From the NCBI GenBank assembly GCA_947460875.1, contig CANHGR010000006.1, forward strand, positions 62,001 through 126,000: a stretch of 64,000 bases of DNA. The letters are read 5' to 3'. The notes under the pieces are model-generated. The model saw only the letters and a list, made by a program, of their open reading frames with translations. It had not been told where the DNA came from and did not search any database. Below are positions 13,204 through 62,569 of the stretch, piece after piece. The position numbers and the translations under genes are program-made. The stretch comes from Sphingobacteriaceae bacterium. Its GTDB lineage: Bacteria > Bacteroidota > Bacteroidia > Sphingobacteriales > Sphingobacteriaceae. How positions within the stretch are numbered: the stretch's first letter is position 1; every line of letters starts with the position of its first letter.

Positions 13204-13233
13204 TTGAAAAAATAACAATACGGCTTATATTTG
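13204..13233 (+). promoter_or_regulatory. Promoter of small RNA A
   Basis: TTG at 13204-13206, a 19-nt spacer, then TATATTTG at 13226-13233. This matches the Bacteroidetes -33/-7 consensus (TTTG and TAnnTTTG). The proposed transcript begins 5 nt after the -7 box. Confidence 0.65.
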
Positions 13234-13237
13234 TATC

Positions 13238-13296
13238 GGTTTATAATTGGTTAGTTTAAAGGCCTCCATTCTCCCCGCTTGGAGGCCTTTTCTTTT
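13238..13296 (+). ncRNA. Candidate small RNA A (seed-type)
   Basis: A short unit of about 55-59 nt. The 5' single-stranded part is GGTTTATAATTGGTTAGTT, then a hairpin GGCCTCC/GGAGGCC (13261-13267 with 13281-13287) with a C-rich 13-nt loop, then TTTTCTTTT. Its first 38 nt differ from RNA B at one position only. The 5' part is complementary to RNA M and to several mRNA leaders in the window. No reading frame of any length fits. That it is transcribed and acts in trans is inference. Confidence 0.6.
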
Positions 13297-13390
13297 CCTC
13301 CAATTTCCGGAAGCTACAACAGCGATTTTATTTAGTTCCACAGGTAGAAATTACCAGCCTGAAAAATACTATACAGCCACGAAAAAAAAT

Positions 13391-13420
13391 TTTGTGAATT
13401 ATATTAAATAGTTATATTTG
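13391..13420 (+). promoter_or_regulatory. Promoter of small RNA M
   Basis: TTTG at 13391-13394, 18-nt spacer, TATATTTG at 13413-13420, again the Bacteroidetes consensus. The proposed start is at the same distance (5 nt) as for RNAs A and B. Confidence 0.65.
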
Positions 13421-13424
13421 ATAT

Positions 13425-13485
13425 ACTAACTAACCAACTATAACCTAAAACCCTCATCTTAAACAAGATGAGGGTTTATTGTTTT
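13425..13485 (+). ncRNA. Candidate small RNA M (decoy-type)
   Basis: The 5' part reads ACTAACTAACCAACTATAAC and is followed by a perfect 13-bp hairpin (13448-13460 with 13465-13477, loop AAAC) and a weak T-rich tail. The 5' part is nearly the reverse complement of RNAs A and B: 10 bp unbroken, one mismatch, 5 bp, a bulge and 2 bp. It also resembles the leaders of carbohydrate genes in this window. It therefore looks like a leader mimic that could titrate A and B. No coding potential is seen. Confidence 0.55.
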
Positions 13486-13537: not shown

Positions 13538-13568
13538 TTTGAAAACTTAATAATTATCCGCACATTTG
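13538..13568 (+). promoter_or_regulatory. Promoter of small RNA B
   Basis: TTTG at 13538-13541, 19-nt spacer, CACATTTG at 13561-13568 (TTTG core kept, TA replaced by CA). The proposed start is 5 nt downstream, as for RNAs A and M. Confidence 0.55.
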
Positions 13569-13572
13569 AAGT

Positions 13573-13632
13573 GGTTTATAATTGGTTAGTTAAAAGGCCT
13601 CCATTCTCCCAGTTTGGAGGTCTTTTTTTTTA
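13573..13632 (+). ncRNA. Candidate small RNA B (paralogue of A)
   Basis: It has the same 5' GGTTTATAATTGGTTAGTT and the same CTCC-rich loop as RNA A. The hairpin is GGCCTCC with GGAGGTC (13596-13602 with 13616-13622, one G-U pair), followed by a strong T9 run. Over the first 38 nt it has one difference from A, while the flanking DNA is unrelated, so selection on the transcript rather than a recent large duplication is likely. Its hairpin ends 8 nt before the stop of the leftward SMP-30-like gene and may terminate that gene too. Confidence 0.6.
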
Positions 13633-14720: not shown

Positions 14721-15302
14721 ATGAATACTTTAAATATTTCACTTTTAGTTGAAGACGCTTCCACCAAAGCTCTCAACATTGGAGATCGCATTCGTATTTT
14801 ACGCAGCAATCAGAAAAGAACATTACAAGAAATTGCTGACCTATGCGAGCTTTCTAAAAGTATGATCTCCAAGATCGAGAATAACAAAACCGTACCATCT
14901 GTGGCAGCGTTAGTTAAAATTGCAAAAGCATTGGGAACCAATATATCAAGTTTACTCGAACAGGATGAGTGGTTAAATGCAATTATGACTTCGCGAGTTA
15001 AAGCTATGGAAAATTTAACACCAACTGACAAGGGTTATTCAATCTATCCTTATGGATCGAACTATCCTGAGAAGAAAATGCAACCCTTTCTGTTTGTCGC
15101 AAAAAAAGGTGAAGTAAAGCACCACCAGCTTGTCCATGAAGGCGAAGAGTTCATTTATATAATCAGCGGCGAAATGAAAATGCAGGTTGGAGAAATTCAA
15201 TATTCTTTAAAAGCCGGCGATACGCTTTACTTTAATTCTCTACTGAAACATGGTGTGATGCCGGTATCTGAAGAGGTAATCTACCTCGATATTTTCGTTT
15301 AA
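14721..15302 (+). CDS. XRE-family regulator with C-terminal cupin domain
   Basis: 193 residues. An XRE helix-turn-helix occupies about 20-75 (IGDRIRILRSNQKRTLQEIADLCELSKSMISKIENN). A cupin_2 domain covers about 110-190 (HHQLVHEGEEFIYIISGEMKMQVG and LKAGDTLYFNSLLKHGV). Such regulators sense a small ligand in the cupin barrel and bind operator DNA. It lies 549 bp upstream of susC in the same direction and is the only transcription-factor gene near the locus, so it is a plausible local regulator. Ligand unknown. Confidence 0.87.
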   Translation: MNTLNISLLVEDASTKALNIGDRIRILRSNQKRTLQEIADLCELSKSMISKIENNKTVPSVAALVKIAKALGTNISSLLEQDEWLNAIMTSRVKAMENLTPTDKGYSIYPYGSNYPEKKMQPFLFVAKKGEVKHHQLVHEGEEFIYIISGEMKMQVGEIQYSLKAGDTLYFNSLLKHGVMPVSEEVIYLDIFV

Positions 15303-15815: not shown

Positions 15816-15834
15816 GACTAACCAATCATTAACC
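15816..15834 (+). promoter_or_regulatory. susC leader motif complementary to small RNAs A/B
   Basis: GACTAACCAATCATTAACC lies 17 nt before the susC start codon. Over 18 nt it differs from the reverse complement of the RNA A/B 5' end at two positions. Similar motifs precede other carbohydrate genes here. A binding role is inferred. Confidence 0.45.
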
Positions 15835-15851: not shown

Positions 15852-18800
15852 ATGAAAAATGAGCAATTTTCTGCTTTAATCCGTTTGGCAAGAAGAACAG
15901 CTGTTTTATGCCTGTTTTTTGCCCTTGCTTCGGCCAGTGTGGCCCTAGCAGAACGGGAATCTAATTTTACTACTAAAGATTTGCTGAAAGTTATTGTCAG
16001 AGGCAGGGTAATAGACAATAATGGCGTGGCAATGCCCGGCGTTGGGGTAAGCCTAAAAGGGACTCAAATACGTGTTACAACCGATGCCAATGGCACTTAC
16101 AGTCTGGATGCACCAGCTGCAGGTGTTCTTGTATTTACTTTTGTGGGCTTCACGACTCAAGAGCTTTCGGCAGGCAACAACACAGTTTTAAACGTCACAC
16201 TAACGCCTGAGACGACAACGCTTGAAGAAGTTGTCGTGGTTGGATACGGTCAGCAAACCAAGGCTACTATGACGGGTGCGGTCAGCTCCGTAAAATCTGA
16301 AGCGTTGCTAAGAACTCCTTCCTCCACTACTTCAGGAGCGCTTGTTGGAAAAATTGCAGGTATTACTGCAAGAGCTGCCGACTCGAGACCAGGAAGCAGT
16401 ACATCTATTCAAATAAGAAATTACGGCACGCCTTTATTTATTATCGATGGCGTACCAATGACCCAAGCAGATTTCAACAACCTAGATCTTTCTTCAATTG
16501 AAGATATATCGGTATTGAAAGATGCTTCTGCTGCAATTTATGGGCTGCGCGCAGCTAACGGCGTAGTACTAGTTACAACAAAAAAAGGCAGTGTTACAGG
16601 TAAAAGCGTGATTAACGTAAGCAGCTACTATGGATCACAAAGTTTTTCGCGATATGTCATTCCTGCAAATGCGTATTTATATGTTACGGCATTAAACTAT
16701 GCAGAACAGAATAATTCAACGCAGAATAATATAACGCCGGCCTTACCGTACTCGCAAGCAGAACTTGAGAAATGGAAAGCCGGGACTGAAAAAGGGTATC
16801 AAAATACAAATTACTATGATTATATTATGTCTCAAAACGTTCCCCAATATTACTTAAATGCAAGTGCATCAGGTGGATACGAAAACGTCAACTATAATAT
16901 CTCCATTGGCCATGTTTACCAAAACGCAACTATCAAAGACAACTATTTTAAACGAACCAATTTACAGGCAAATTTAGATATCGGCCTAGCAAAGGGGTTT
17001 AAGGTCGGCACTCAAATTAGCGGCCGCCTTGAAACCCGCCATGAAGTTTCACCTGTAGGGTCAGGAGCAAGTACATATGACAATCCATTTCTTGCAATCT
17101 TATCCATGTGGCCAACTGAGAGGGCTTTTGCTAACGATAATCCGTTATATATTAATGCAGACGTCAATATCCCGACCAGAAATCCAGAATTGTATAAAGA
17201 AAGTGTGGTGGGATCTCAGGAACAAACTAATACTACATTTAACGGCAATTTTTACGCTCAATACCAATTTCCATTTGGTTTAACGGCAAAAGCTACATAT
17301 TCATATGGATTTAAACCGACTCGCTTTGAAAATCAGCGGAAAATCTTCAGCACTTACCGCTATGTAGCGGCTACAGACACCTATACTGAAGTTGTAACCG
17401 GCACCCCACCTCGTGTTAAGCGCAGGGATGAAACACAAAACTTTTTTTCTCAGTTGCAACTGAACTATAGCAAGAACCTCGGTTCACATTCAATAAAAGC
17501 TACAGCTGCCTACGAAAGCGAAAGATCAGAAACACAAAATTTACAAGTGAATTCCATTTCACCGAACAATTACAGCCCTCTAATTAGATACATTGATGTC
17601 AATGGCGTTACTGACACATACGGCACAAGTGAAAGAGCATCATTTATCGGAAGAGCAGATTATTCTTTTAAACAGAAATATCTGGTAACTCTGCTCGGTA
17701 GATATGATGGATCTTATTTATACGCGCCCGGCAAGCGCTGGGGATTATTTCCAGGTGTACAATTAGCCTGGCGTGTTTCAGAGGAGCCTTTCTTCAAAGA
17801 GAACCTTAGTTTCTTCAGCAATTTCAAGCTAAGAGCTTCTTACGGTCAAACCGGCATCGAATCAGGCGTTAACCAGTGGGACTATCTTGGCGGCGCCTCC
17901 TACGGCAGTGGAAGTTATATTTTTGATGGCACCCTCGCTACTGGTGTAGATCCGAGAGATCCTGCAGTGACAAACATAACTTGGGCAACCAACATCCAGA
18001 AAAATATTGGATTTGATTTCGGATTATTTAATAACAAGTTTGCTGGCCAATTTGACGTTTTTGCCCGTATTCAGAAAAATTTAACCGGGACAAATACGGC
18101 TGTAATCGTTCCGAGTGAAATCGGATATAGCCTACCCGAAGAAAATCTAAAGATTTCAAACGGAATTTTCGGTATCGAAGGGCAGTTCAGCTATACAAGC
18201 AAGATCAATAACGTTGATTACTCGATCGGACTAAATGCTACTCTTTCGAGAGATAAATCTTTAGACAGATATAGACAACGATGGTCTAATTCCTATGACC
18301 AGTGGCGTAATGGAACACAAGACAGGTGGTCGAATATCCTTTTCGGATTTGAAACAGAAGGGCAATTTACATCGCTAGAGCAAATTCGAGATTGGCCGGT
18401 AAACATAGATGGTTCGGGGAACAGAACTTTACTCCCCGGCGATATCATCTATAAAGATACAAATGGCGATAAAATTATCAATAACAATGATCAACTTCCA
18501 ATCGGATATGCAAGAGGAGCTAATCCTTACATGAGTTTCGGACTTAACACCGAAGTTGGATATAAAGGCTTTAAATTAACTTTGGATTTTGCCGGTGGTT
18601 CCATGCAATCTCTCGTACGAGAACTAGAATTGCGGGTTCCTTTTCAAGCGAATCACAGTGCTCCGCATTATATTTTCGATGATGTTTGGCATAGAGCCGA
18701 TGTATTTGATGACAATAGTCCATGGATTCCTGGAAAATATCCTCCAATACGGAAAAATCCAACAAGTCAATCAAGCTATAACAAGATAAGCAGCTTCTGG

Positions 18801-19034
18801 CTTACAAATGTTAAATATATACGCTTAAAATCTCTTGAACTTGGCTATGATATCCCACAGAAATTCATCCAAAAAGCTGGCGCCTCGCGACTAAGGGTAT
18901 ACGCAAATGGGTCAAATCTGTTCTCGATTGATAATATGAAAGAATACGAAGCAGATCCTGAGATTTCTATGGGAAGCGGATTAGTTTATCCAAATGTCAA
19001 GCTATACACCTTTGGCTTTAACCTAACATTTTAA
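15852..19034 (+). CDS. susC: SusC/RagA-family TonB-dependent outer-membrane transporter
   Basis: 1060 residues. The signal peptide (to about residue 33) is followed by a carboxypeptidase-like domain (about 48-120: VRGRVIDNNGVAMPGVGVSL). Next come a TonB box with the family signature EEVVVVGYG, a plug domain (TMTGAVSSVKSEALLRTP, IDGVPMTQADF, DASAAIYGLRAANGVVLVTTKKG) and a 22-strand barrel ending in a terminal aromatic-type strand (YTFGFNLTF). It imports glycan fragments bound by SusD. It opens the polysaccharide utilisation operon, with susD 10 nt downstream. Substrate is inferred from neighbours (GH39, GH3, acid-sugar enzymes) as xylose- or uronate-containing glycan. Confidence 0.96.
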   Translation: MKNEQFSALIRLARRTAVLCLFFALASASVALAERESNFTTKDLLKVIVRGRVIDNNGVAMPGVGVSLKGTQIRVTTDANGTYSLDAPAAGVLVFTFVGFTTQELSAGNNTVLNVTLTPETTTLEEVVVVGYGQQTKATMTGAVSSVKSEALLRTPSSTTSGALVGKIAGITARAADSRPGSSTSIQIRNYGTPLFIIDGVPMTQADFNNLDLSSIEDISVLKDASAAIYGLRAANGVVLVTTKKGSVTGKSVINVSSYYGSQSFSRYVIPANAYLYVTALNYAEQNNSTQNNITPALPYSQAELEKWKAGTEKGYQNTNYYDYIMSQNVPQYYLNASASGGYENVNYNISIGHVYQNATIKDNYFKRTNLQANLDIGLAKGFKVGTQISGRLETRHEVSPVGSGASTYDNPFLAILSMWPTERAFANDNPLYINADVNIPTRNPELYKESVVGSQEQTNTTFNGNFYAQYQFPFGLTAKATYSYGFKPTRFENQRKIFSTYRYVAATDTYTEVVTGTPPRVKRRDETQNFFSQLQLNYSKNLGSHSIKATAAYESERSETQNLQVNSISPNNYSPLIRYIDVNGVTDTYGTSERASFIGRADYSFKQKYLVTLLGRYDGSYLYAPGKRWGLFPGVQLAWRVSEEPFFKENLSFFSNFKLRASYGQTGIESGVNQWDYLGGASYGSGSYIFDGTLATGVDPRDPAVTNITWATNIQKNIGFDFGLFNNKFAGQFDVFARIQKNLTGTNTAVIVPSEIGYSLPEENLKISNGIFGIEGQFSYTSKINNVDYSIGLNATLSRDKSLDRYRQRWSNSYDQWRNGTQDRWSNILFGFETEGQFTSLEQIRDWPVNIDGSGNRTLLPGDIIYKDTNGDKIINNNDQLPIGYARGANPYMSFGLNTEVGYKGFKLTLDFAGGSMQSLVRELELRVPFQANHSAPHYIFDDVWHRADVFDDNSPWIPGKYPPIRKNPTSQSSYNKISSFWLTNVKYIRLKSLELGYDIPQKFIQKAGASRLRVYANGSNLFSIDNMKEYEADPEISMGSGLVYPNVKLYTFGFNLTF

Positions 19035-19044
19035 TTGACCTAAT

Positions 19045-20955
19045 ATGAAAACTATCATCAGATATATACTTCTCAGTACTCTATCGCTCTCAGTATTCTC
19101 CTGTAGCAAAGAAGCACTTGAAACTACGCCTCAATCTATCCTGTTTGACGATCAAACTTGGTCTGACCCTGTAATTGTAACGGGCGTATTAGCTAATTTT
19201 TACAATCGGCTTCCTGCACATACTAGCATCTCTTCTAACTATATGGAATATTCTGTGTTTGACGAGGCAATTTGGTCGGGCTTTAATAACCCGACGGAGG
19301 AGGCCCATAACAACGTTTTGAGCTACGCGACAGACAGATGGAGGCTTTGGGATTACGGGTTGATCAGGGACATCAACCTGGCGATTGACAAAGTGAATGA
19401 AGCGAACTCGGTAAAAATGACCACAAACGTAAAAAAACAATTCATTGCAGAATTGAGGTTTCTTCGCGCTCTGGATTATTTTGAAATGGTCAAAAGGATG
19501 GGTGGAGTACCCATCATCACGGAACAACTAATATATGACTTCAGCGGTGACGCAACGCCACTTCAGAGGCCTCGGAATACCGAAGCAGAAGTTTACACTT
19601 TTGTGGCGAATGAAGTTGATGCAATAAAAGAAGATTTGGGCTACCCAAACAGTAAAACCCATGCTAATAAATATGCTGCCTTAGCTTTGAAAAGCCGTGC
19701 GATGCTGTATGCCGGTTCTATTGCAAAATATGGAAGCACAACTCCAACAGTATCAACACCGGGTGGAGAAGTAGGAATTTCAGCGTCTTTGGCGAGCGGA
19801 TTTTATCAACGATCACTCGATGCTTCTAGAGAAATTTTAGTCAGCAATAAATATTCATTATACAATGTCAATCCTAATAAGGGCGAAAATTTCTACGAAG
19901 CGATTATGACTAAAAACAATAATCCTGAAGTGATCTGGGCTTACGATTTTAACAAAGCACAGGGCAAAAAACATAATTTCACGGTCGATAATATTGCCCG
20001 GTCTTTCGTAGAAAATGCTTCACAAGCTGGTTCAGGCATCACGCCTTCTGCACAATTAGTTGAAGCGTATGAATACGTAGGAGGAGTCACAAATCCATCT
20101 GACGGATCTTTGAGAGGAGTGGGCACCGGAAGTACCACTCTTACCGGTACTCAGCAAACTGCCCAATGGATATTTTATGACAAACCTGAAGATATCTTTG
20201 CGAATAAAGATGCTAGATTATATGGAACTGTGATTTATCCTGGGACCAGCTTTGCAGGACGGCCCGTTTCAATTCAAATGGGAGTTTACGTTTGGAATGC
20301 TAGTACAAACAAATACGATCGTGTAGAAGGTAACGTAGGATCTACCTACACTGATGGCGGAGTACTTACCGGAAAAGACGGACCTCACCGAAGCACAAAT
20401 TTTACCAGCAACAGTGGCTTCTATCTTAGAAAATACATTGATCCCGCACCGGGTGCGAGCTCGAGTGCCGTTGGAAGTGATACATGGTGGATCTACTTTA
20501 GGCTCGGTGAAATATTATTGAATGCAGGAGAAGCTGCATTTGAACTCAATGGAGCAACTTCCGAGGCGCTAGATTATTTTAATCAGGTAAGAGTTCGAGC
20601 AGGGTTTGCCGCCAATAGCATTAATGCAGGAAATTTAGACCGATTAAAAATCGAAAACGAACGTAGAATAGAACTTGCATTTGAAGATCACCGCGTTTGG
20701 GATCTGCGACGCTGGAGAAGAGCACATATCCTCTGGGATGGAAATACAACAAACAGGAATGCGATGATGTTGGGGGCATTTAGCTATCGAGTTGTCCGTC
20801 CGGGACATCCGATGCATGGCAAATATGTCTACGATGTTTCTGTTCCGGCAAGACTAAAAGCACCACGCTTTTACCAAGTACAGAATTATTATTCAACAAT
20901 TAACAACACGGTACTCAGTAATAATCCTAAAATAGTGAAAAACCCTTTCCAATAA
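19045..20955 (+). CDS. susD: SusD/RagB-family glycan-binding lipoprotein
   Basis: 636 residues. Lipoprotein signal with lipobox LSVFSC (cysteine at about 20). The N-terminal TPR-like helices include VKKQFIAELRFLRALDYFEMVKRMGGVPI, the hallmark SusD stretch. The C-terminal half carries LRLGEILLNAGEAAFELNG-like (WWIYFRLGEILL) and ENERRIELAFEDHRVWDLRRWRRA, also family signatures. It sits as a lid on the SusC barrel at the cell surface. Length is slightly above average for the family (about 500-600). Confidence 0.95.
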   Translation: MKTIIRYILLSTLSLSVFSCSKEALETTPQSILFDDQTWSDPVIVTGVLANFYNRLPAHTSISSNYMEYSVFDEAIWSGFNNPTEEAHNNVLSYATDRWRLWDYGLIRDINLAIDKVNEANSVKMTTNVKKQFIAELRFLRALDYFEMVKRMGGVPIITEQLIYDFSGDATPLQRPRNTEAEVYTFVANEVDAIKEDLGYPNSKTHANKYAALALKSRAMLYAGSIAKYGSTTPTVSTPGGEVGISASLASGFYQRSLDASREILVSNKYSLYNVNPNKGENFYEAIMTKNNNPEVIWAYDFNKAQGKKHNFTVDNIARSFVENASQAGSGITPSAQLVEAYEYVGGVTNPSDGSLRGVGTGSTTLTGTQQTAQWIFYDKPEDIFANKDARLYGTVIYPGTSFAGRPVSIQMGVYVWNASTNKYDRVEGNVGSTYTDGGVLTGKDGPHRSTNFTSNSGFYLRKYIDPAPGASSSAVGSDTWWIYFRLGEILLNAGEAAFELNGATSEALDYFNQVRVRAGFAANSINAGNLDRLKIENERRIELAFEDHRVWDLRRWRRAHILWDGNTTNRNAMMLGAFSYRVVRPGHPMHGKYVYDVSVPARLKAPRFYQVQNYYSTINNTVLSNNPKIVKNPFQ

Positions 20956-61266: not shown

Positions 61267-62569
61267 AGATATCCATAATCAGTACTCCGCCCAATCCCAT
61301 GACCGCAATCAGGGTTTCCATAATAGACCAGGAGAAAAGAGTATCCTTTATAGAAAGGTTGAAATACTCTTTAAAGAGCCAAAAGCCAGAATCATTCACA
61401 TGGGAAAAAGCCAAACTGCCTGCTCCAATCGCCAAAACTAACAAGTTTGGATCAACATTCAAGCTTCCCATCATAGGCGCGAAAATCCCAGCTGTTGTAA
61501 GGCCCGCAACGGTTGCCGACCCTAAACAAATTCTGATAATACCGGCTATCAACCATCCCAGAATAAGCGGATTTATAGATAATCCTTGCAACAGCACTGC
61601 AATGTCATTGCTAACACCACTGTCTACCAATACCTGTTTGAGTATACCTGCGCCTCCAATAATAAGAAGGATCATCGTTACATCCTTTACGGCATCTGAA
61701 TAAACACCCATAACGGAAGTCATACTTCGACCCATCTTTAAGCCAAGCATATAAGTTACCACAATAGTGGCAATCAACATCGAGATTGCAGGATCTGATA
61801 AAAACACAAATGTGGCCTTTAGCGATCCTTCTAGCGGGATAAAAAATGGCACCATAGTGGTTACCATTAACAAAATAACTGGAAGAAGTGATGCCAAAAT
61901 ACTATTTGTCGTTCCTGGAAGTTCTTCGTTAGATAGATCAACTGAATACGTTTGCGAGGGTGAAATTACAATGTGCTTTAAGCGGCTTGCAAGAAATGGC
62001 CCTGCAACAATCATGGCAGGAATTGATATAATTATTCCATAAAATAGTGTCAAACCCATATTTGCGTTGAACTGCAATACCAACGCTGATGGCGATGGGT
62101 GTGGAGGCAAAAATCCATGTGCTACAGACATCGGCGCAAGTAGCGGGATGGCGATGAACATTGGAGGAAGCTTACATTTATAAATAATAGAAAAAATAAG
62201 CGGCACAAGAAGCACAAAACCTACGTTATAAAAAAGAGGAATCCCAATGATAAAACCAGTAATCATAAGCGCCCACGTGATATACTTTTCGCCAAATGTT
62301 TTCATCATTACCGTTGCAATGCGCTGAGCAGCGCCACTTTCTGCAACTAGCTTTCCCATCATCGCACCAAGAACAATGATTATGACGATGGAGCCAAGTG
62401 TATCACCTATCCCTTTGGAAACGGATTTACCAACCTCGGCAACTGGAATTCCAAGAGAGATTCCCGTTATTAATGATACAATCAAGAAGGCTAGAAAAGG
62501 GTTAACCTTCCCTATTGTTATCAATCCTATAAGTAGCAGGATACATAACAAAACGATAATTAATGTCAT
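61259..62569 (-). CDS. gntP: GntP-family gluconate/aldonate permease
   Basis: 436 residues, highly hydrophobic with about 12-14 spans. The family patterns are VNPFLAFLIVSLITGISLGIP at the start, LLAPMSVAHGFLPPHPSPSALV and FSHVNDSGFWLFKEYFNLS near the end. It takes up gluconate or related aldonates with protons. It follows the IlvD/Edd dehydratase gene 44 bp downstream on the same strand, so aldonate uptake and dehydration are coupled. Its leader carries the best match in the window to the target of small RNAs A/B. Confidence 0.93.
   Translation of the reverse strand: MTLIIVLLCILLLIGLITIGKVNPFLAFLIVSLITGISLGIPVAEVGKSVSKGIGDTLGSIVIIIVLGAMMGKLVAESGAAQRIATVMMKTFGEKYITWALMITGFIIGIPLFYNVGFVLLVPLIFSIIYKCKLPPMFIAIPLLAPMSVAHGFLPPHPSPSALVLQFNANMGLTLFYGIIISIPAMIVAGPFLASRLKHIVISPSQTYSVDLSNEELPGTTNSILASLLPVILLMVTTMVPFFIPLEGSLKATFVFLSDPAISMLIATIVVTYMLGLKMGRSMTSVMGVYSDAVKDVTMILLIIGGAGILKQVLVDSGVSNDIAVLLQGLSINPLILGWLIAGIIRICLGSATVAGLTTAGIFAPMMGSLNVDPNLLVLAIGAGSLAFSHVNDSGFWLFKEYFNLSIKDTLFSWSIMETLIAVMGLGGVLIMDIFI

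Follow-up and report, generated by a model that had tools for sequence, protein, structure and literature searches.

Known porin-repressing small RNAs and known RNA sponges

The FopS RNAs of Bacteroides thetaiotaomicron, reported together with GibS and the protein RbpB, form a paralogous family of about 65–70 nt, each with a conserved single-stranded 5' seed and a terminator; they are described as base-pairing close to the start codon of SusC-type porin mRNAs and thereby repressing translation, and an Rfam model of FopS is stated to have been deposited (PMC11697453). RNAs that counteract whole families of sibling small RNAs (sRNAs) are described elsewhere. A single sRNA of Caulobacter crescentus, CrfA, inactivates the sibling sRNAs SisA-D and thereby raises the expression of TonB-dependent receptors (PMC12559287), and the sponge sRNA QrrX of Vibrio cholerae pairs with and destabilises all of the siblings Qrr1-4 (PMC9732341). 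Sponges of sibling sRNA families are already known. In searches of the open-licence PMC literature, we recognised no sponge in Bacteroidota and no sRNAs of Sphingobacteriaceae or Pedobacter. In plants, target mimics are decoy RNAs that copy a target site and keep a central mismatch or bulge.

The locus analysed here contains three small RNAs, termed A, M and B. A and B resemble FopS in that they are multi-copy RNAs of 60–70 nt with a single-stranded 5' seed and a terminator and, as far as their sequences indicate, in pairing with SusC leaders near the start codon. In contrast, the 35-nt FopS seed consensus has no significant similarity to either RNA (1511 of 5000 shuffles were as good for A and 2886 of 5000 for B), although one of the seven A copies tested, that of genome G003, reached 54 of 5000. 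The FopS partner RbpB, an RRM-1 protein, is also not evident in the genome that carries the locus (hereafter the host genome), where the RRM_1 profile (PF00076) gave 0 matches, with Bacteroides ihuae positive as the control. Because neither a significant seed similarity nor an RRM_1 protein was detected, full homology or membership of A and B in FopS is not established; their best reading is as FopS-like repressors of SusC porins, which their sequences suggest. The term 'sponge' is not mentioned in the available text of the FopS report (PMC11697453).

M would correspond to CrfA as a dedicated sRNA directed against a sibling sRNA family. However, CrfA and SisA-D are Hfq-dependent, belong to another phylum and are unrelated in sequence (core UUUCCUCCCU), whereas M and A form a syntenic tandem and M appears to mimic an mRNA leader. 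QrrX likewise belongs to another phylum and has other targets (quorum sensing); moreover, qrrX lies between vca0830 and vca0832 with no qrr linkage described in the accessible text (PMC9732341), whereas M is linked to A. The differences of M from the known sponges are thus its Bacteroidota host and its linkage to the target sRNA. By analogy, M may also be compared with plant target mimics, as it carries what looks like a target-site copy with a central mismatch.

Structure of the A–M–B locus

The window, i.e. the whole stretch of 64,000 nucleotides that was analysed, corresponds to positions 62001–126000 of contig C6 in a 2.2-Mb Sphingobacteriaceae genome (26 contigs, 99% complete). A, M and B lie in one intergenic stretch, with a gene for a family-2 glycosyltransferase on one side and a convergent gene on the other, and all three are on one strand, as first noted. 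Their promoter-like boxes were read against the -33/-7 sequence TTTG / TAnnTTTG, which we take to be the Bacteroidota promoter consensus. The features are as follows.

13204–13233, plus strand: promoter-like sequence of A, TTG and TATATTTG (13226–13233), read from the sequence
13238–13297, plus strand: RNA A, 5' single-stranded seed (13238–13256), then terminator (13258–13297), from fold prediction and family alignment
13391–13420, plus strand: promoter-like sequence of M, TTTG (13391–13394) and TATATTTG (13413–13420), read from the sequence
13425–13485, plus strand: RNA M, antisense and putative target-mimic 5' segment (13425–13446), then intrinsic terminator (13448–13485)
13538–13568, plus strand: promoter-like sequence of B, TTTG and CACATTTG (13561–13568), a weaker match than the box of A or M
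13573–13632, plus strand: RNA B, 5' seed (13573–13591), then terminator (13592–13631)

A TAnnTTT[AG]-like box recurs 5' of the relatives of M, and A and B have the sequence GGTTTATAATTGGTTAGTT in common. The susC operon described below is separated from the small RNAs by a gene for an HTH-cupin regulator (weakly PuuR-like; 14721–15302), a candidate for the transcriptional control of the small-RNA/susC locus.

A multi-copy RNA family in Sphingobacteriaceae

A and B are members of a multi-copy RNA family that consists of a single-stranded GGTTTATAATTGGTTAGT and an intrinsic terminator. They are not unique to the A–M–B locus: the host genome contains at least four A-type copies, and the exact 16-nt core in the orientation of A is present in A, in B, once on contig C1 and once on contig C8. 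Sphingobacteriaceae genomes holding the family contain from 1 to about 20 copies. With up to one mismatch allowed, the core was found in 34 of 60 related genomes and in 28 of the 37 belonging to the same family (host genome included), while a reversed control pattern gave 0–3 matches per genome in the 60. Among the single core matches outside Sphingobacteriaceae that were read, none was of A type.

For this survey, 80 further stretches were fetched from relatives and their matches were read. A hairpin of -8 kcal/mol or better directly follows the core in 106 of 118 distinct matches; after removal of one that reads like coding sequence (L189), 105 A-type copies were obtained. GGT, which was outside the search pattern, precedes the core in 98 of them, and TAnnTTTG is present 4–9 nt before the GG in 20. 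In an alignment of 54 copies, the core and the preceding GGT are nearly invariant, and the letters of the stem drift. When A, B and M were compared with Rfam, none of them matched a family at gathering score; the highest-scoring matches under the threshold (SpF11, Phe_leader and others) were dismissed, being far below the cut-offs and looking like terminator matches. A and B therefore appear to represent a large, previously unlisted RNA family without an Rfam match, in a family of soil bacteria. The terminator loops read CTCCC(C) in 67 and CCCAT in 29 of the 105 copies, and because the loop is kept although the stem letters drift (e.g. window positions 13268–13279 and 13602–13613), a second function of the loop is hinted at.

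A tRNA-like element of 111–116 nt was observed about 20 nt 5' of the A-type seed in at least 14 of the 105 copies, with five more recognised by eye, some of them shorter.

L008:1536–1647 (C8:23966–24077), minus strand: tRNA-like element, the sole copy in the host genome
L096, L098, L099, L100, L107, L135, L136, L143, L147, L176, L180, L185 and L193: tRNA-like elements at other loci

The element has an 8-bp acceptor-like stem, a D-like arm, a GGTTCGA T arm and a long variable arm, and no normal anticodon arm; the consensus fold of 14 copies contains 31 pairs, 7 of which are changed on both sides. In 21 loci, ARAGORN predicted a single tRNA, the ordinary tRNA-Cys of L106, and recognised none of these elements. 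In Rfam, the elements at L008, L096, L101, L102 and L185 had no match at gathering score, and the L096 copy had none even at E values of up to 1. The shorter versions in L093, L101 and L102 are located just 5' of the A-type core and seem to keep no more than the acceptor-like stem and the GGTTCGA T arm, so that by analogy they seem to resemble a minimal RNase Z or RNase P substrate. The tRNA-like part might conceivably be a handle for processing of the RNase P / RNase Z type, by which the seed RNA would be released; if this is true, such a handle before a seed RNA would be unusual.

Complementarity of M to A and B

The original prediction held that the 5' end of M is antisense to those of A and B, and this was borne out by duplex energies that beat nearly all shuffled controls. 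The 5' end of M, ACTAACTAACCAACTATAACC (13425–13445, plus strand), is an imperfect reverse complement of 13238–13256 in A and of 13573–13591 in B. The layout with A is the one first noted (10 bp, one mismatch, 5 bp, a one-base bulge and 2 bp), and with B the first run extends to 11 bp. The calculated energies are -17.4 kcal/mol for M–A and -19.2 kcal/mol for M–B, compared with a shuffled mean near -8.3; dinucleotide shuffles were as good in 29 of 20,000 cases for M–A and in 6 of 20,000 for M–B, and the strength of the pairing of M with A is equalled by 18 of the 42,652 22-mers in the window. The 5' segments lie outside the terminator hairpins and are single-stranded in predicted folds, the mean unpaired values predicted in the window unit being 0.90 (M) and 0.91 (B, as the A-type RNA). 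M has complementarity to the seed, a promoter-like box and a terminator, and may be a separate transcript. A type I toxin–antitoxin or cis-antisense pair was rejected, as M does not overlap A or B and the window M has no ATG.

Because its 5' end is a free 18-nt seed, as in A, M might itself be an independent small RNA directed at mRNAs that bear GGTTAG-like sites, its pairing with A being incidental. We regard this as improbable: M is conserved beside A, and the core complementary to M is complete in the A-type RNAs of its own genome.

Conservation of the M–A tandem

A two-sequence model of M (R1) led to M-like RNAs adjoining A-type copies in other genera. At E<=0.1, it gave matches in 91 of 301 genomes and also drew many plain terminators; most of the matches read in 30 fetched loci were not M-like. 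For this reason, M was counted only by the M–A tandem pattern, and the R1 matches were treated as leads. In all stretches fetched up to that point, 14 pairs of CTAWCCAA and A core were found within 320 nt, and in 12 of these the motif lies 126–147 nt 5' of the core; the other two (54 and 61 nt apart) look like chance. A direct pattern search of 399 genomes of the family identified 12 M–A tandems in 10 genomes representing 5 of 25 genera, all with the same order, strand and fixed distance, whereas a backwards-pattern control gave 0. M is thus patchy, the tandem being missing in 389 of the 399 genomes, and there are usually more copies of A than of M. When 84,980 species were scanned, 11 stretches were returned, 10 of them in Sphingobacteriales records; the remaining one, in Desulfobulbus alkaliphilus (L337), was dropped as chance, since it lacks the architecture of M or A and its duplex reaches only -6.9. 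Type strains with the tandem include Pedobacter glucosidilyticus DSM 23534 and Paradesertivirga mongoliensis KCTC 52859. The conservation of the tandem rules out M as a chance antisense sequence.

All 12 tandems have a terminator after M (hairpin of -13 to -21 kcal/mol) and M–A duplexes predicted at between -13.1 and -19.2 kcal/mol. The M 5' end has an identity of 0.79 across nine distinct units, compared with 0.34 upstream and 0.27 downstream, and the M hairpin and the spacer are near shuffled levels (0.65 versus 0.54 and 0.62 versus 0.59, respectively). Some of the units are not independent of one another: four close genomes contain the G018-type M, and in one case G011 and G033 have the same neighbours. 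As the search had fixed 8 of the 18 M positions, the ten positions that follow were tested alone against the A 5' sequence GGTTTATAA, and shuffles were as good in 0 of 2000 cases by energy and 26 of 5000 by score. The complementarity is therefore conserved as judged from the tandems, the duplex energies, the 5' identity and the unfixed positions.

The tandem units lie in varied gene contexts and not beside SusC. Paradesertivirga mongoliensis (G011) contains three (C2:407754–407909, C3:83710–83866 and C3:822754–822912) in different contexts, and therefore the M–A unit spreads or duplicates as a whole. This duplication as a unit, together with the patchiness of M and its resemblance to a susC leader, could also be accounted for if M were a non-functional remnant, such as a captured susC leader with a terminator that was duplicated along with A. 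Such a remnant would hardly keep its 5' end across five genera while the hairpin and spacer are near the shuffled baseline, and we consider this explanation the least probable of those weighed here.

The same tandems bear on a possible action in cis, in which a read-through M–A transcript would fold the M 5' end onto that of A and block or mature A, M being a processing or attenuation part. M and A are at a fixed distance on one strand in 12 of 12 tandems, and the 5' ends of M and the next A-type RNA constitute a 17-nt inverted repeat with a separation of 132 nt. However, M and A each have their own terminator and promoter-like box; two M-like RNAs, one in G030 (C8) and one in G070, are not followed by an A within 400 nt; and in the window the predicted pairing of M with A, which is located upstream of it, is nearly as strong. 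Action in cis therefore has a low probability in our estimation.

The original prediction had proposed M as a decoy or sponge that titrates A and B, with co-variation in relatives as a check. The tandem in five genera, the kept 5' complementarity and the likeness to a SusC-leader site (see below) agree with the proposal, which is thereby supported in part, and the duplex was kept in relatives, with no overall change that abandoned complementarity. The expected co-variation did not appear: no compensatory change between M and A was found in the 12 tandems, and in two genera CTAACC of M has become CTATCC, with one pair lost without compensation. The duplex centre is mismatched in nearly all units, and M varies at this central mismatch. 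The lack of strict covariation can be attributed to the 5' end of A, which hardly varies. A decoy or sponge is the best-supported reading of M that its sequence allows, because the M–A unit is kept in five genera, the 5' complementarity stays while the hairpin and spacer drift, and M resembles the SusC-leader site.

Putative sites for A and B in SusC leaders

A sequence resembling the 5' end of M was found in the leader of a susC gene located 2.2 kb downstream of B, which is the first gene of a locus that also contains susD, a GH39 enzyme and sugar-acid enzymes.

15817–15834, plus strand: putative A/B target site in the susC leader, ACTAACCAATCATTAACC, matching the reverse complement of the A 5' end at 16 of 18 positions, -35 to -18 from the ATG
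15852–19034, plus strand: susC, SusC/RagA TonB-linked outer membrane protein (TIGR04056, 726.7 bits), putative target
19045–20955, plus strand: susD homologue 3' of susC (Pfam PF07980)

The predicted duplexes of this leader with A (-19.0 kcal/mol) and B (-19.2 kcal/mol) are as strong as those of A–M and B–M, and the site is predicted to be mostly unpaired (0.70). Reverse-complementing the A 5' end gives ACTAACCAATTATAAACC; with up to 3 mismatches to this sequence, nine places were found in the host genome and three with the control. Five of the nine are the A-type RNAs (four) and M, and one is the susC leader, which has 2 mismatches and is the only non-sRNA site within that limit; the remaining three equal the control count.

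We then compared SusC leaders, defined as the 60 nt before the first in-frame ATG, which was taken as the start. Genes were picked in list order before testing, except for 7 G011 genes that were added to represent that genome; L254 (no open frame; first set), L307 (second set) and L376 and L377 (A-less set) were left out, and G031:C107 was skipped, since the start of this gene falls at the end of a contig. As the site ACTAACCAATTATAAACC was derived from A and the hypothesis was prompted by the window susC, the 59 leaders of relatives fetched later constitute the fair test. In the first set of 33 leaders (including the four of the host genome), 7 have a site of at least 13/18, against 1.0 expected. 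In the held-out 59, the corresponding number is 7 against 1.6 expected (p=0.009), with at least 14 matches in 3 against 0.26 expected (p=0.004) and a mean shift of p=0.003. For all 92 leaders of A-bearing genomes, it is 14 against 2.6 expected (p=0.002), a statistic in which common ancestry of leaders may play a part. In contrast, none of 68 SusC leaders from four family genomes without any core copy has a site (1.2 expected), a difference from the A-bearing genomes (Fisher p=0.0003) for which the A-less genomes represent only two genera. The site starts at -37 to -30 in 9 of the 14 leaders (binomial p=0.0001), and 78 of the 92 leaders have no site of at least 13/18, including two of the four in the host genome.

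Leaders of 189 other ORFs showed no mean shift (p=0.27) and a small tail excess, with 5 leaders at 13/18 or better where 2.0 were expected (p=0.049). In G009, two lipoprotein-like paralogues of 218 aa (L103:1501–2201; L175, minus strand) have a 17/18 match to the A complement 43–44 nt before the ATG. Given these sites and the tail excess, we do not claim that the A family is restricted to SusC; its targets, as predicted from sequence, may reach beyond SusC.

These leader data also bear on whether the common sequence is instead a DNA or protein signal, i.e. an operator, a repeat or an RNA–protein site, for which the inverse copy in M would be a second half-site or protein decoy. In favour of this, the A 5' end exists in many copies with hardly any variation, as a dispersed repeat would, and some A copies trail tRNA-like RNAs instead of a promoter; in addition, the FopS RNAs of Bacteroides are described as binding the protein RbpB (PMC11697453). 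On the other hand, the motif is at the RNA 5' end in both A and M, which differ in promoters and terminators; SusC leaders are enriched for its reverse complement on their sense strand, with a favoured spacing to the ATG, and this holds only for genomes with A; and the centre of M varies while base pairs are kept. We accordingly give this explanation little credence.

Proposed mechanism and implications

Our preferred reading, which we hold to be probable, is that A and B are trans-acting repressors of SusC-type porins and that M is a target-mimic sponge relieving them. A and B would be trans-acting small RNAs of about 60 nt, whose nearly invariant single-stranded 5' end, GGUUUAUAAUUGGUUAGU, would pair with the leader of a susC-type porin mRNA just 5' of the start codon, most likely blocking the translation of selected SusC messages. 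M, a separate RNA of about 60 nt, would imitate the mRNA site with its 5' end, ACUAACCAAnUAUAACC, including a central mismatch, and by binding A and B it would mask or destabilise them, so that the porin genes are relieved. The sequence analysis establishes the RNA family, the complementarity of M to A, the conservation of their tandem and an enrichment of SusC-leader sites that goes with the presence of A; from these we infer the transcription of the RNAs, the repression, the titration and a signal that induces M. It is also conceivable that A and B activate rather than repress SusC messages.

A wider porin-choice circuit can be proposed only tentatively and is rather doubtful in its full form. 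In such a circuit, up to about 20 seed RNAs would silence SusC, each either transcribed from a promoter of its own or freed from a tRNA-like handle on whose 3' side it lies, and the linked M, duplicated together with single seed RNAs, would tune the pool.

Among the papers surveyed, as far as their available text extends, post-transcriptional choice among dozens of glycan porins in Bacteroidota has been worked out only for FopS in Bacteroides. A and B would represent a second, sequence-distinct seed-RNA family, found in another class, with targets that can be predicted letter by letter. M would be an RNA antagonist, where Bacteroides reportedly uses the protein RbpB, and it would thus provide a sponge physically linked to the sRNA that it antagonises, in a genome in which no RRM protein was detected.
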